Shown piece by piece: positions 6,748 through 64,000 of a DNA stretch of 64,000 nucleotides (position 1 is its first letter; each line of letters opens with the position of its first letter). Both the position numbers and the translations under genes were made by a program. The stretch is taken from positions 1 through 64,000 of the forward strand of contig CATKXE010000004.1 of assembly GCA_949840465.1 (NCBI GenBank). The letters run 5' to 3'. Origin of the DNA: an uncultured Lachnospiraceae bacterium (GTDB lineage Bacteria > Bacillota > Clostridia > Lachnospirales > Lachnospiraceae). Under the pieces are notes generated by a model that was not told the origin of the DNA, did not search any database, and saw only the letters and a list, made by a program, of their open reading frames with translations.

Positions 6748-7524
6748 ATGGGTGGTATTTCTGGAATCAGTACTACATCTCCTTATTTATATGGACATAT
6801 TGCAAGCGGGAACAGACTGATGTCTGCTGCCGACGGTGCCGCTGAACTGGCCATTACTAAGAATGAAGAAGCGCAGATTACAGGTTATAACACTGGTACG
6901 AAGAATCTTGGCGACGGGGTCAATCTGCTGAACACTTCCGATGGAGCTTTAGGCAGTGTGACAGACCATTTACAGAGGATGCGTGAATTAGCGCTCCGGG
7001 CTTCCAGCTCCATCCTGAACGATTCCAACCGTGCAGAGATCCAAAAAGAAATTGAACAGTTGAAAAAAGGGATTGACCAGATTGCCTCACAGACGAATTT
7101 TAATGGCCGCAGCTTATTGGACGGCAGTCAGGCGAAGGGCGTTCAGTTGGTGTCTGATGCAGGCGGCAGTTCTCTGACAGTCAACAATTCTCTGAATTCA
7201 ACGACTCAGGCGCTTGGAATCGCAGATTTTGACGTTACAAAGGGGAATTTTGATCTACAGGCTATTGACGACGCTTTAACCAGGGTTACCAGTAACCGCA
7301 GTACGTTAGGCGCTCAGTCCAATGCATTGGATCACGCAATTAATTATAATGAGTATGCATCCGTCAATCTGACCGCATCCATGAGCCGTATGGGGGATAC
7401 CGATATTGCAAAGACTTTGATGGAATTAAAGCACCAGCAGACATTGCAGAGTGTTTCCATGATGCTGCAGAAGCGCAAGATGGAACAGGATGGCAATAAG
7501 ATGACAGGCCTTCTTAGAATGTAA
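6748..7524 (+). CDS. Divergent flagellin-like protein
   Basis: 258 aa; DGALGSVTDHLQRMRELALRASSSILNDSNRAEIQKEIEQLKKGIDQIASQTNFNGRSLLDG; RBS GGAAGGAGG. Confidence 0.85.
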   Translation: MGGISGISTTSPYLYGHIASGNRLMSAADGAAELAITKNEEAQITGYNTGTKNLGDGVNLLNTSDGALGSVTDHLQRMRELALRASSSILNDSNRAEIQKEIEQLKKGIDQIASQTNFNGRSLLDGSQAKGVQLVSDAGGSSLTVNNSLNSTTQALGIADFDVTKGNFDLQAIDDALTRVTSNRSTLGAQSNALDHAINYNEYASVNLTASMSRMGDTDIAKTLMELKHQQTLQSVSMMLQKRKMEQDGNKMTGLLRM

Positions 7525-7578
7525 TTACGGAAAAACAGCCAGTTTTTCACTTCTTTCTGGGCTTTGGTATATTACTAA

Positions 7579-7614
7579 CAAAAAACAGATGCCGTAACGG
7601 GCATCTGTTTTTTG
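7579..7614. terminator. Bidirectional terminator
   Basis: CAAAAAACAGATGCC-GTAAC-GGGCATCTGTTTTTTG. Confidence 0.85.
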
Positions 7615-7723
7615 TTGCATTATTCATTAAAAAGCTCTTTATCCCCATTTTTGCGGCTGCCGGTTCCCCGCCGTCCACCGCCATGCTTTCGTAAAGGAAC
7701 TTATTTCAGCGCAGGAATTTTTA

Positions 7724-51636: not shown

Positions 51637-51670
51637 GGTCGTTTCCTCCTTGTAAATAATGTAATACCCA

Positions 51671-51738
51671 CCTCACGTTCATTCGAGGGCAGGCCGGAGG
51701 AAGGCATTTAGAGAAATGCTTCGCATTTGCCTTCCTCC
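51671..51738 (-). repeat. Family 2 intercistronic palindromic element, copy 2
   Basis: Minus: GGAGGAAGGCAAATGCGAAGCATTTCTCTAAATGCCTTCCTCCGGCCTGCCCTCGAATGAACGTGAGG, starting right at the paralog 4 stop codon. Confidence 0.85.
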
Positions 51739-52433
51739 TAATATCCTCTTGTTCTTATCAAATCATCTGCTTCTTTCCAGGTGTCATAGGGTACCGGCGG
51801 CTCCGGATACACGTACATATGGCCATCCTGCCGGTAATTATCCTCATACGGACACGGCTCCGGCTCAACCGTAATATTCCCGTTATGGATGCTGTCCAGT
51901 TCATCAAACATACATTCTTTCCAATAGCTTCTGTTCTGATACAGCCACCCAAAGGCCGCGTCAGCCTCCACAAAAATGAACCAGTGCCAGTGCCAGATCT
52001 TCCACACGCCATCCTCCTTGATCAGATCATGATAATACTTCCCTTCCGACCACACCTGGGAGCGCCCCAATGCAAGACATTTGTATCCCGGAGAAAACTC
52101 CGCTACTTTTGCAGTTTTCCCGTCTTCTGCAATTTCAATAACTTTCGCCACAGATTCATGCTCCACAAGCGCCCCTGGCATACGCGCCAGGGCGGGACGC
52201 TGGTCGAAAAATTCCAGATTCGGCCTGGAACCCACCATACGCCCGCCCATTCCTGCGTCCGACCAGACACGCGGCGCATCCCAGTTAATGGCACTCGTAA
52301 TCCCATTACAATCCGCGCCCTGAAAATAGGAAAGATACTTATTGATCTCCTTGGTGATGGCAATCACATCTTCCGCATGGGTAATCTTTTTTTCCAGTGC
52401 ATCCAGACGTTTTTCCATCTCATCTAAATTCAT
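51738..52433 (-). CDS. SnoaL/NTF2-like protein, paralog 4
   Basis: 231 aa; LDALEKKITHAEDVIAITKEINKYLSYFQGAD; GVWKIWHWHWFIFVE; PEPPVPYDTWKEADDLIRTRGY. Confidence 0.8.
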   Translation of the reverse strand: MNLDEMEKRLDALEKKITHAEDVIAITKEINKYLSYFQGADCNGITSAINWDAPRVWSDAGMGGRMVGSRPNLEFFDQRPALARMPGALVEHESVAKVIEIAEDGKTAKVAEFSPGYKCLALGRSQVWSEGKYYHDLIKEDGVWKIWHWHWFIFVEADAAFGWLYQNRSYWKECMFDELDSIHNGNITVEPEPCPYEDNYRQDGHMYVYPEPPVPYDTWKEADDLIRTRGY

Positions 52434-61060: not shown

Positions 61061-61420
61061 CTACTCTTTTTCCGGATATTCCTTATCCTTCCAATACCAC
61101 CACTTTAATTTCTCTGCTTCATGCTGTTCATGCTCCGCAAAATACACCGCGCAGCGGTAGACATACAATACACATTTATCATCCTGAAACCCCTTTTTCA
61201 GGCAGTCCAGATGATACAGATCTTCGGGTTTCTTTCCTTTTAAATCGTCAATACAGTGGATTCCGATATTCTGCAGATGTTTCTGCATATTTGCACCCAC
61301 GCCCGGTATCTTCTGCAGATCGCCGGCAGTGCCTTTTGGCGGTTCTTTTTCTTTTTTACAAATAAAATCCTCTTCAGATTTTTCTCTTTTTTCATCTTCA
61401 TGCATTTCCCCTGCCCTCAC
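61061..61420 (-). CDS. Helix-hairpin-helix protein, Cdd1-like
   Basis: 119 aa; LQKIPGVGANMQKHLQNIGIHCIDDLKGKKPEDLYHLDCLKKGFQDDKCVLYVYRCAVYFAEHEQHEAEKLKWWYWKD. Confidence 0.85.
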   Translation of the reverse strand: MRAGEMHEDEKREKSEEDFICKKEKEPPKGTAGDLQKIPGVGANMQKHLQNIGIHCIDDLKGKKPEDLYHLDCLKKGFQDDKCVLYVYRCAVYFAEHEQHEAEKLKWWYWKDKEYPEKE

Positions 61421-62174
61421 TTTCAGGTTCTTCCAGAAATTTCAAGACTCTTTCATTAAACGCTGCCGCCATCTTATTTGCAATAAAATGATCCCCCTTC
61501 AGAATTGCCAGTTCTGAATCAGGAATCTCCAATGCAATGAGCCTCGTGTGTTTCTCCTTTATCATATCCCTTGTCCCTGCAATGACCAAAGTCCTTGCCT
61601 GAATACCGGACAATTCCTCCACGGACACATTCGGTTCATGAACCATCAGTCCCAGAAGTTCCATATTCCGTTTTGCCCCGTCGCTTTTACCCGAAAACAT
61701 CCTTGCTATCCGGTACCCCAGTTCTATGGGAATCTGTATAGAGCGTTTTACCCCTTGTGCATTCAAATTGGCCCCATTCAGAATCAGTTTATCCACCCGT
61801 TCAGGATACTTGACTGCAAATACCAGCGCAATATTCCCACCGTCCGAAAAGCCCAGCAAATGTGCCTTAGCGATCCCATGCCCATCCATAAAACCAAGCA
61901 GATCCTCAGCAAACTGCCTGATCGTAAACGGTTTTTCTCCCCGGGGTGTTTTTCCATGCCCCCTTGTATCCATTGCATACACATGATAGCGCCGGGAAAA
62001 TTCCTCGATTTGACTCTGAAAATAACCGCTGTCTTCCCCATTTCCATGGAGCAGAATAATCGGTGCTCCCTGTCCCTTTTCCATATAAAAATGCCTGATG
62101 TCCACTTCTCTTCTCCCTCTGTACGGTATACGCCGCACTTTTTCAAAATCCCCCGCCGAAACTTTATAACCCAT
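61398..62174 (-). CDS. Alpha/beta fold hydrolase
   Basis: IILLHGNGEDSGYFQSQIEEFSRRYHVYAMDTRGHGKT; AHLLGFSDGGNIAL; start MGYKVS at 62174 behind AGGAGG. Confidence 0.9.
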   Translation of the reverse strand: MGYKVSAGDFEKVRRIPYRGRREVDIRHFYMEKGQGAPIILLHGNGEDSGYFQSQIEEFSRRYHVYAMDTRGHGKTPRGEKPFTIRQFAEDLLGFMDGHGIAKAHLLGFSDGGNIALVFAVKYPERVDKLILNGANLNAQGVKRSIQIPIELGYRIARMFSGKSDGAKRNMELLGLMVHEPNVSVEELSGIQARTLVIAGTRDMIKEKHTRLIALEIPDSELAILKGDHFIANKMAAAFNERVLKFLEEPESEGRGNA

Positions 62175-62306
62175 CGGAATATTTCCTCCTACTATTAGCA
62201 CATCCATACTGTAATGTCAATAGTTACAATATCTTTTTAATGATGCAATGTTGAGGCAATTATCAATTATAGTTGAAAAATATTGGTAAAATTTTAAAAA
62301 ATTTTA

Positions 62307-62335
62307 TTGTAGAAATATATGGGATATGGTAATAT
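62307..62335 (+). promoter_or_regulatory. Candidate sigma-A promoter for the flagellin transcript
   Basis: TTGTAG-N17-TAATAT. Confidence 0.5.
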
Positions 62336-62364
62336 CTTGATGTGGCGATAGACTCTGAGGTACA

Positions 62365-62418
62365 GGTAATAGATTCCTGTAAGGGGATCTATTGCCTTTT
62401 TTCATGAAAAAAAGGCAA
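62365..62418 (+). promoter_or_regulatory. Mutually exclusive terminator/anti-terminator-like hairpins in flagellin leader
   Basis: Hairpin 1 GGTAATAGATTCCT-GTAA-GGGGATCTATTGCC then TTTTTT (62365-62402); hairpin 2 TTGCCTTTTTT-CATGA-AAAAAAGGCAA (62392-62418) shares TTGCC and the T-tract. Confidence 0.7.
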
Positions 62419-62509
62419 ATGTTACATATGTAAGGATCATTTCATCTACAGTATTTTCGTGCGGTTTTTACAAAAATCAAAAAAAGCAGAAAGGAAGGTT
62501 TCAATCAAA

Positions 62510-64000
62510 ATGATAATTCAAACCAACATACCGGCTTTGTATGCACTGCGTGAAAAGAAGAATACTGACAGTGCAATTGCAAAGAACTTACAGAAGCTGT
62601 CCTCAGGCCTCCGGATCCAGCAGGCAGCGGATGACGCGGCAGGCCTTGCCATATCGGAAAAGATGCGCGCCCAGATTACCGAGCTTGAACGCTGCGAACT
62701 CAATGTTTCCGAGGGAATCGACATTACGCAGACTGCGGACGGCGCGCTGGATGAGGTCGGAGGGATGCTGCGCCGTGCCAGAGAACTCTGCCTGCAGGCA
62801 AGCAACGGCACCTACAGCGACCAGGAACGTCTCTACATGAGCGAGGAGATCAACCAGATCTTTAGCGAGATCGACCGGATCACGTCAACCAGCCGGTACA
62901 ATACCATTCCGCTCTTCCGCAGCGCCCCCAATGACTCCGACGATCCTGTTTATCTCTACGTGGAAGAGTTCGGCAAAGTTCCGGATCAGCAATTATGGGG
63001 CGAGATGGATTTTGTGAAAAGCGAAGACTTTGCCCCGCCCGCCGAGGCCAGACCCGCCACTGCCACATTCCAGCTTTCAGATAACGTGGTAATGAACTAT
63101 GCGGATTTGCTGGACAAAAAATCGCTTATGATCGGCAGCTATACCTATACTTTTCGGAAAGACGCCGACCGGAACAACACTTCCTCAAATCCGCGTATCG
63201 TTTCCATCAAAAATATCCAGACGGTCAAGGAAGCCATGGAACAGCTTGCCAAATTTCCCGATATCGACAAAGTAGACGTAGATGAAACCGCTAAAACGGT
63301 AACCCTGACGGCGAGCCTGGATAACTACACTTATCCGGTTGAGGCAAACGGAACCATTTCCCATTATACCGCGCCAAACGGAACCGGAGAATACAAAAAC
63401 AACTTAATATTGAAAAATCCGGAGGGAAAGGAAACGATCGGACAAGTGGACGGCAGCGGCGTCACAAACAACCAGCCGGTATATGGAACGGACCTGTCCT
63501 TTTCCTTCGATCTGTCCCGTATCAAAGAGCCGATTGACGTTGCAAATCTGAGAAGGAATTCACTGAAAATCCACATAGACGGATTAAGTCCGTCCGAGAT
63601 CACGATCCCTTACAGCAGCATTTTTGGCGCCTCCCCAGGTACGATTACCAAAGACGCGTTTGCCAACGCTGTTATAAACAAGCTTAAGAACACGAGCCCC
63701 CTCAACGGCAGCAATACGAAGATAGAGTATACGGCTCCCAATCTGGTGATCCACACCAGCCTTCCCGCCTCTGCTTCTTCCGGTACACAGCATAGCGCGT
63801 ATATCTCGGAATTAACCGCGCCAAAGCGGGAGGATACTTCCAAGCCGAAATGGACGACGAACCGGCTTGATTTCACCACGAGTACCACTCCTCCCTCTGC
63901 GGAGGTAGGCGGTACATACACCGTACAGATACCCGATGCAAGTTCTTTCCAGGTGCCGTTCTCCTTCAAGCTGGGCTCCTATACGCACATTTTCTATAAC
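62510..64000 (+). CDS. Flagellin with a long variable central region, partial, runs off right edge
   Basis: MIIQTNIPALYALREKKNTDSAIAKNLQKLSSGLRIQQAADDAAGLAISEKMRAQITELERCELNVSEGIDITQTADGALDEVGGMLRRARELCLQASNGTYSDQER; open for 497 codons; missing from ORF track because it has no in-window stop. Confidence 0.93.
   Translation, partial: MIIQTNIPALYALREKKNTDSAIAKNLQKLSSGLRIQQAADDAAGLAISEKMRAQITELERCELNVSEGIDITQTADGALDEVGGMLRRARELCLQASNGTYSDQERLYMSEEINQIFSEIDRITSTSRYNTIPLFRSAPNDSDDPVYLYVEEFGKVPDQQLWGEMDFVKSEDFAPPAEARPATATFQLSDNVVMNYADLLDKKSLMIGSYTYTFRKDADRNNTSSNPRIVSIKNIQTVKEAMEQLAKFPDIDKVDVDETAKTVTLTASLDNYTYPVEANGTISHYTAPNGTGEYKNNLILKNPEGKETIGQVDGSGVTNNQPVYGTDLSFSFDLSRIKEPIDVANLRRNSLKIHIDGLSPSEITIPYSSIFGASPGTITKDAFANAVINKLKNTSPLNGSNTKIEYTAPNLVIHTSLPASASSGTQHSAYISELTAPKREDTSKPKWTTNRLDFTTSTTPPSAEVGGTYTVQIPDASSFQVPFSFKLGSYTHIFYN

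Follow-up and report, generated by a model that had tools for sequence, protein, structure and literature searches.

Positions 62301-62404 of the window, the 64,000-nucleotide contig stretch of an uncultured Lachnospiraceae bacterium analysed here, are one of 23 aligned copies of a cassette of ~105 bp, which is likely a dispersed and transplanted promoter-attenuator limiting the expression of the gene behind it by premature termination. According to the proposed mechanism, RNA polymerase would initiate from an extended -10 promoter, at G62342 or beside it, to give a short leader, an A/U-rich hairpin followed by a U-tract would release an RNA of ~60 nt in most rounds, and only read-through transcripts would reach the flagellin gene that follows. 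Most cassette transcripts would probably stop in this way after ~60 bases, the terminated RNA predicted for each copy being 45-75 nt long, so that premature termination would set, and possibly regulate, the expression of the accessory gene behind the cassette.

Promoter, +1 box and terminator hairpin of the window copy

The elements of the cassette are ordered as a -35 element (TTGTAGAA), ~17 bp, an extended -10 (TATGnTAnnAT), 6-7 bp and a box (GTGGCGATA), followed by a short spacer, the terminator stem and the U-tract. Conservation between unrelated loci extends from the -35 through the U-tract. In the extended -10 of the 23 copies, the T-G is kept in 96/91%, the TA in 96/96% and the final A-T in 87/100%, and the predicted +1 falls in the same box across the alignment. 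The promoter call rests on conservation, since a sigma-70 consensus scan, for which the -35 of the window copy agrees with TTGACA at 3/6 positions, doesn't list this promoter. An invertible promoter was rejected, no inverted repeats being found on the flanks of the promoter of the window copy. The same promoter was also seen without box and terminator in Schaedlerella arabinosiphila DSM 106076 (G006:C1:3287240-3287355, locus L093), where it follows the Uma2 gene that also precedes the AbiH copy in genome G007 and where the similarity ends just past the predicted start site.

Table 1. Features of the cassette copy at 62301-62404 and of its neighbours (window positions).
Feature	Coordinates	Strand	Basis or remark
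Upstream gene, alpha/beta hydrolase	61398-62207	-	Divergent from the cassette
-35 element TTGTAG	62307-62312	+	First conserved block; TTG in 96-100% of 23 copies
Extended -10 region TATGG-TAATAT (consensus TATGnTAnnAT)	62325-62335	+	Conservation, 23 copies
-10 TAATAT	62330-62335	+	Window copy
+1 box GTGGCGATA; predicted start at or next to G62342	62342-62350	+	6-7 bp past the -10 in the copies
Terminator stem-loop	62365-62396	+	Folds; covariation in 19 copies
U6 tract ending the intrinsic terminator; final conserved block	62397-62402	+	T-run kept in all copies
Copy-specific 11-bp palindrome, outside the conserved cassette	62392-62418	+	Exact repeat
Atypical flagellin, 1032 aa, running past the window end	62510-64000, to G000:C4:65605	+	PF00669, E 2e-34

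The first-pass annotation had described, upstream of the flagellin ORF, a 14-bp hairpin with a GTAA loop and a T6 run lying ~30 nt after a candidate promoter and not serving as the terminator of the preceding gene. All of this was confirmed: arm B (GGTAATAGATTCCT) occupies 62365-62378, the GTAA loop 62379-62382, arm C (GGGGATCTATTGCC) 62383-62396 and T6 62397-62402, the stem begins 30 nt past the -10 and the upstream gene is on the minus strand, so that the hairpin isn't its terminator. The 62355-62405 segment folds at -23.5 kcal/mol (z -5.8), with none of 200 shuffles as good. As a class, terminator-like sites occur at chance frequency in the surrounding 4-kb region (5 found vs 3.8 expected) and, therefore, the significance of the 62365-62402 site rests on its fold, conservation and covariation. 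A stable hairpin with a U-tract, as in an attenuator, stands between promoter and gene and is conserved in the copies. Termination may be weak because the stem is A/U-rich.

Copies, covariation of the stem and two copy classes

A DNA search of relatives matched approximately the first 105 bases, promoter through U-tract, in three Schaedlerella genomes. A covariance model built on five copies then gave more copies in the genus, a second one built on 19 copies gave further ones, including one in another Lachnospiraceae genus, and a third, run after the alignment, gave one more in this second genus, the 24th copy. Among the 23 aligned copies, 22 are from Schaedlerella, a genus of gut bacteria, in 7 of its 12 genomes, and one is from the second genus. 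Five are carried by the genome of the window (contigs C4, which holds the window, C10, C22, C51 and C76) and S. arabinosiphila DSM 106076 has copies as well, at C1:3480781 and C3:139252. An exact-pattern search of 85,462 species returned copies in Schaedlerella only, plus chance matches, and no copies were found in the viral contigs, phages and plasmids searched. Weak model matches in other families of the order, viewed by eye, were mostly different sequences and were mostly set aside. The Rfam comparison proposed by the first-pass annotation gave no match at or above the gathering score for the window element or in 20 loci, the latter with chance-level matches only.

The covariation that had been called for in relatives was observed. 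In 19 copies, 95.1% of the cells of the stem are paired and changes on both sides occur at 10 of the 14 pairs, while 0/500 shuffles reach any of these measures and sliding the stem partners by 1-3 columns lowers pairing to 44-60%. The alignment was fitted to a model holding the stem structure, which favours that structure; the slid controls are nevertheless far off. The stem is real across copies, its base usually reading AGGTRAT with RTTGCC in the 23 aligned copies, and an RNA secondary structure conserved through covariation is a further attenuator feature. Together, the hairpin with its U-tract and the covariation in relatives support the premature intrinsic termination of a ~60-nt leader before the flagellin ORF, as predicted from the sequence by the earlier reading.

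That reading had also proposed a second 11-bp hairpin around CATGA as an antiterminator mutually exclusive with the first. The inverted repeat TTGCCTTTTTT/CATGA/AAAAAAGGCAA is indeed exact at 62392-62418, a perfect arm of at least 11 is reached in only 0.45% of local Markov shuffles, and the palindrome overlaps the 3' arm and the U-tract of the terminator, all of which would be in line with a flagellin-specific terminator/antiterminator switch. However, the palindrome is absent from all other cassette copies and, for the stems alone, the second hairpin is weaker (-9.6 vs -16.7 kcal/mol). Furthermore, the polymerase is already beyond the termination point by the time the 3' arm of this hairpin is made, so that the hairpin cannot prevent termination. 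As to mutual exclusion, the two sequences do overlap but a shortened terminator stem, comprising most of the original, and the second hairpin stand side by side in the minimum-energy fold of the read-through RNA. Considering also that the cassette is missing before 25 other flagellins of the genus, such a switch is hardly credible and the palindrome is best regarded as a peculiarity of the read-through mRNA of this one copy.

Two classes of copies were distinguished by their stems. In class I (single-arm) copies the stem starts from +3 and the box itself is its 5' arm (arm A with arm C), A pairing with its own C at -19.4 kcal/mol vs -13.2 with the C of other copies. In class II (two-arm) copies, to which the window copy belongs, the stem is built from C and a second arm, B; for the class as a group, A shows no preference (-9.2 with its own C vs -9.1 with that of other copies). 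The stem next to the U-tract is thereby kept in both classes through different pairings, and stem pairing doesn't seem to be the reason why class II copies retain the box, since their arm A shows no preference for its own C. In the window copy, the box doubles as arm A and is able to pair with 62388-62396; this A:C fold, with an inner UACAGG/CCUGUA hairpin, is the minimum at -23.2 kcal/mol when the RNA is cut in the U-tract (62343-62400), and the B:C fold has -24.2 kcal/mol (62342-62404). Because either pairing leaves a stem adjoining the U-tract, the two modelled folds look more like terminators than like a switch. Arms A and B as a switch were rejected for this reason and for the lack of own-C preference of A in class II.

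The conserved +1 box RTGG[CT][GA] would be the best candidate for an element that is recognised or that controls the rate. In this regard, an antitermination switch responding to phage or stress was considered, whereby a factor, or a change of RNA polymerase on infection, would act at the box, allow read-through and turn on dispersed defence and surface genes including the alternative giant flagellin; we regard it as speculative and rather unlikely. Processive antitermination by a NusG paralog of the LoaP or RfaH type would agree with the position of the box upstream of the terminator and with its sequence, GGCGATAG, which resembles the ops element, GGCGGTAG. In the 93%-complete genome, however, the only NusG found is the housekeeping one, between secE and rplK. 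LoaP leaders depend on a NusG paralog and have an RNA hairpin of the UNCG type (PMC12691694); the cassette resembles them as a leader from Bacillota whose terminator allows read-through but differs in that neither the paralog nor such a hairpin upstream of the terminator was found, which makes this reading very improbable.

A device without regulation, in which a strong promoter and a leaky terminator would give a fixed low level of costly products, is a tenable reading to which we give less than even weight. Promoter and terminator explain everything conserved, and between +1 and the stem, which in single-arm copies starts from +3, there is no room for a sensor domain. On the other hand, two-arm copies retain the box even though it doesn't covary with their stem, pointing to an additional role, and a weaker promoter would be a simpler route to low expression.

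Coupling between translation and termination through a leaderless GTG micro-ORF that begins at +1 is very improbable. The predicted +1 does fall on GTG or ATG in nearly all copies, and frame 0 is open through the element in 9/22 copies vs 2 and 4 for the other frames; length and stop position, however, are unconserved, the conserved CGATAG alone places a stop in frame 1 and there is no proper coding signal. A leaderless peptide was rejected, as the reading frame isn't conserved across copies.

Genes downstream of the cassette

All 22 copies whose downstream sequence is readable have the orientation of the next gene, which lies 0-490 nt downstream; two others are at contig ends, and several copies have a divergent upstream gene. 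Such an orientation, with a chance of ~2^-22, bears on whether the cassette is a stand-alone small RNA gene acting in trans, its terminator merely ending the RNA. The 45-75-nt RNA predicted for each copy would suit such a gene, but all readable copies point at the next gene, and the hairpin sequence itself varies. The cassette was consequently taken as a leader, the small RNA gene being quite improbable.

The genes that follow are unrelated to each other. The first copies found in relatives precede AbiH, a NACHT-like STAND NTPase, a membrane protein and NTPase pair, and a secreted protein. Overall, the genes directly behind the cassette or sharing an operon with the first gene include AbiH, two ThsB-type TIR proteins with the PADLOC candidate PDC-M50A, a SIR2 protein (PDC-S25), nSTAND3 and nSTAND5 NTPases, a KAP/ATPase_2 NTPase, two SLATT/DUF4231 proteins (one with an HD-CE partner and the other with a weakly nitrilase-like one), a weakly DrmC-like PLD protein, DUF6765/DUF4474, DUF2589, a PLP enzyme, a secreted protein, the giant flagellin and several unknowns. 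Ten arbitrary window genes gave one spurious match. Clear defence genes follow about one third of the copies, and 3/10 of the upstream neighbours are also defence genes. For this reason a defence-specific regulon was rejected: the cassette is located in defence-rich islands, a context that accounts in part for the apparent preference for defence genes. If the proposed premature termination is correct, one genus uses a transplantable promoter-attenuator to place an early terminator before many unrelated accessory genes, among them defence genes of the TIR, SIR2, STAND and AbiH types, which would provide a concrete and testable answer to how costly defence genes stay quiet yet ready, as well as a defined set of copies for seeking the factor controlling read-through.

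The earlier description of the element as a flagellin leader doesn't hold, the same cassette standing before unrelated genes and upstream of only one of the 26 flagellins examined in the genus. None of the 25 other Schaedlerella flagellins coincides with a cassette model match and, in the 260-bp stretches upstream of them, three have a terminator-like hairpin of unrelated sequence, one of these in the genome of the window. Upstream of the window flagellin no strict sigma-28 match was found, and no sigma-70-like promoter is listed between 62403 and the start codon; the flagellin would therefore probably depend on read-through, a promoter missed by the scans being possible. The giant protein itself has an insertion of ~700 aa between conserved ends and no close full-length relative in the 11 other Schaedlerella genomes.

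Other flagellins were noted in passing. A second one in the same genome, of 642 aa (L013 2881-4809, on G000:C3, minus strand), resembles protease-bearing flagellins in that its variable region contains an HExxH motif (HELMHSVMQY). A short flagellin-like gene of 258 aa lies at 6748-7524 of the window, with TAAA-N17-CGATAG just 5' of it, possibly a sigma-28 promoter, and soon after it a perfect 16-17-bp inverted repeat (7577-7616) that is probably its terminator. Ordinary flagellin leaders of the genus (L143, L145, L151 and L165; 330 bp upstream) have a GGAAAAGGAATTCC hairpin resembling a CsrA site and a GCCGGCA element.

Relation to known systems

Related attenuators upstream of unrelated genes are an already published concept, the 'mobile attenuators' of Naville and Gautheret (2010), where related terminators before unrelated genes were ascribed to near-identical IS ends (PMC2965389). 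In the cassette, too, premature terminators related to one another stand directly before unrelated genes of Bacillota. It differs in having its own promoter and +1 box and a covarying stem, with no transposable element found at the copies inspected. Hairpins that are relics of the end of an insertion sequence or mobile element near unrelated genes would fit this published pattern, the accessory islands in which copies are found and the two second-genus copies, both directly 3' of a tyrosine-recombinase-like gene (L103 458-1387; L172 ~400-1400). They are nonetheless unlikely, given that the promoter belongs to the conserved unit, every readable copy points towards the next gene, the stem has diverged with compensatory changes instead of being near-identical and no transposase gene was seen beside the copies inspected. 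A transposon end had been the first idea, as copies in relatives showed either contig orientation, and was weakened once the re-oriented copies all proved codirectional with the next gene. In the open-access subset of the literature, no description was found of such a family, equipped with a promoter and a +1 box of its own, before accessory or defence genes and, apparently, the promoter-plus-early-terminator cassette is undescribed so far.

Promoter-proximal attenuation without a large sensor domain is similar in having a terminator within ~30 nt of the start and a short terminated RNA; the cassette, unlike it, has no known box, ligand or protein and is common to unrelated genes instead of one pathway. 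Type III toxin-antitoxin loci consist of a promoter, a short RNA and a terminator followed by an anti-phage gene. The cassette shares this order but not the run of antitoxin repeats, and no ToxN-family nuclease was found among the downstream proteins scanned.

Two further RNA features were observed. The sole Rfam match in the window is a GA-cis RNA (RF02987, 46.5 bits) at 51656-51742 on the minus strand. In another family of the order (L181, L182, L183, L185, L189, L191 and L192, near position 1501), a conserved promoter is followed at once by an A/T-rich hairpin and a U-tract, without a GTGGCG box. These loci precede a secreted-protein gene (YabE/Rpf-like by eye), mostly adjoining a TatD-like gene, and form a second family of promoter-proximal terminators.
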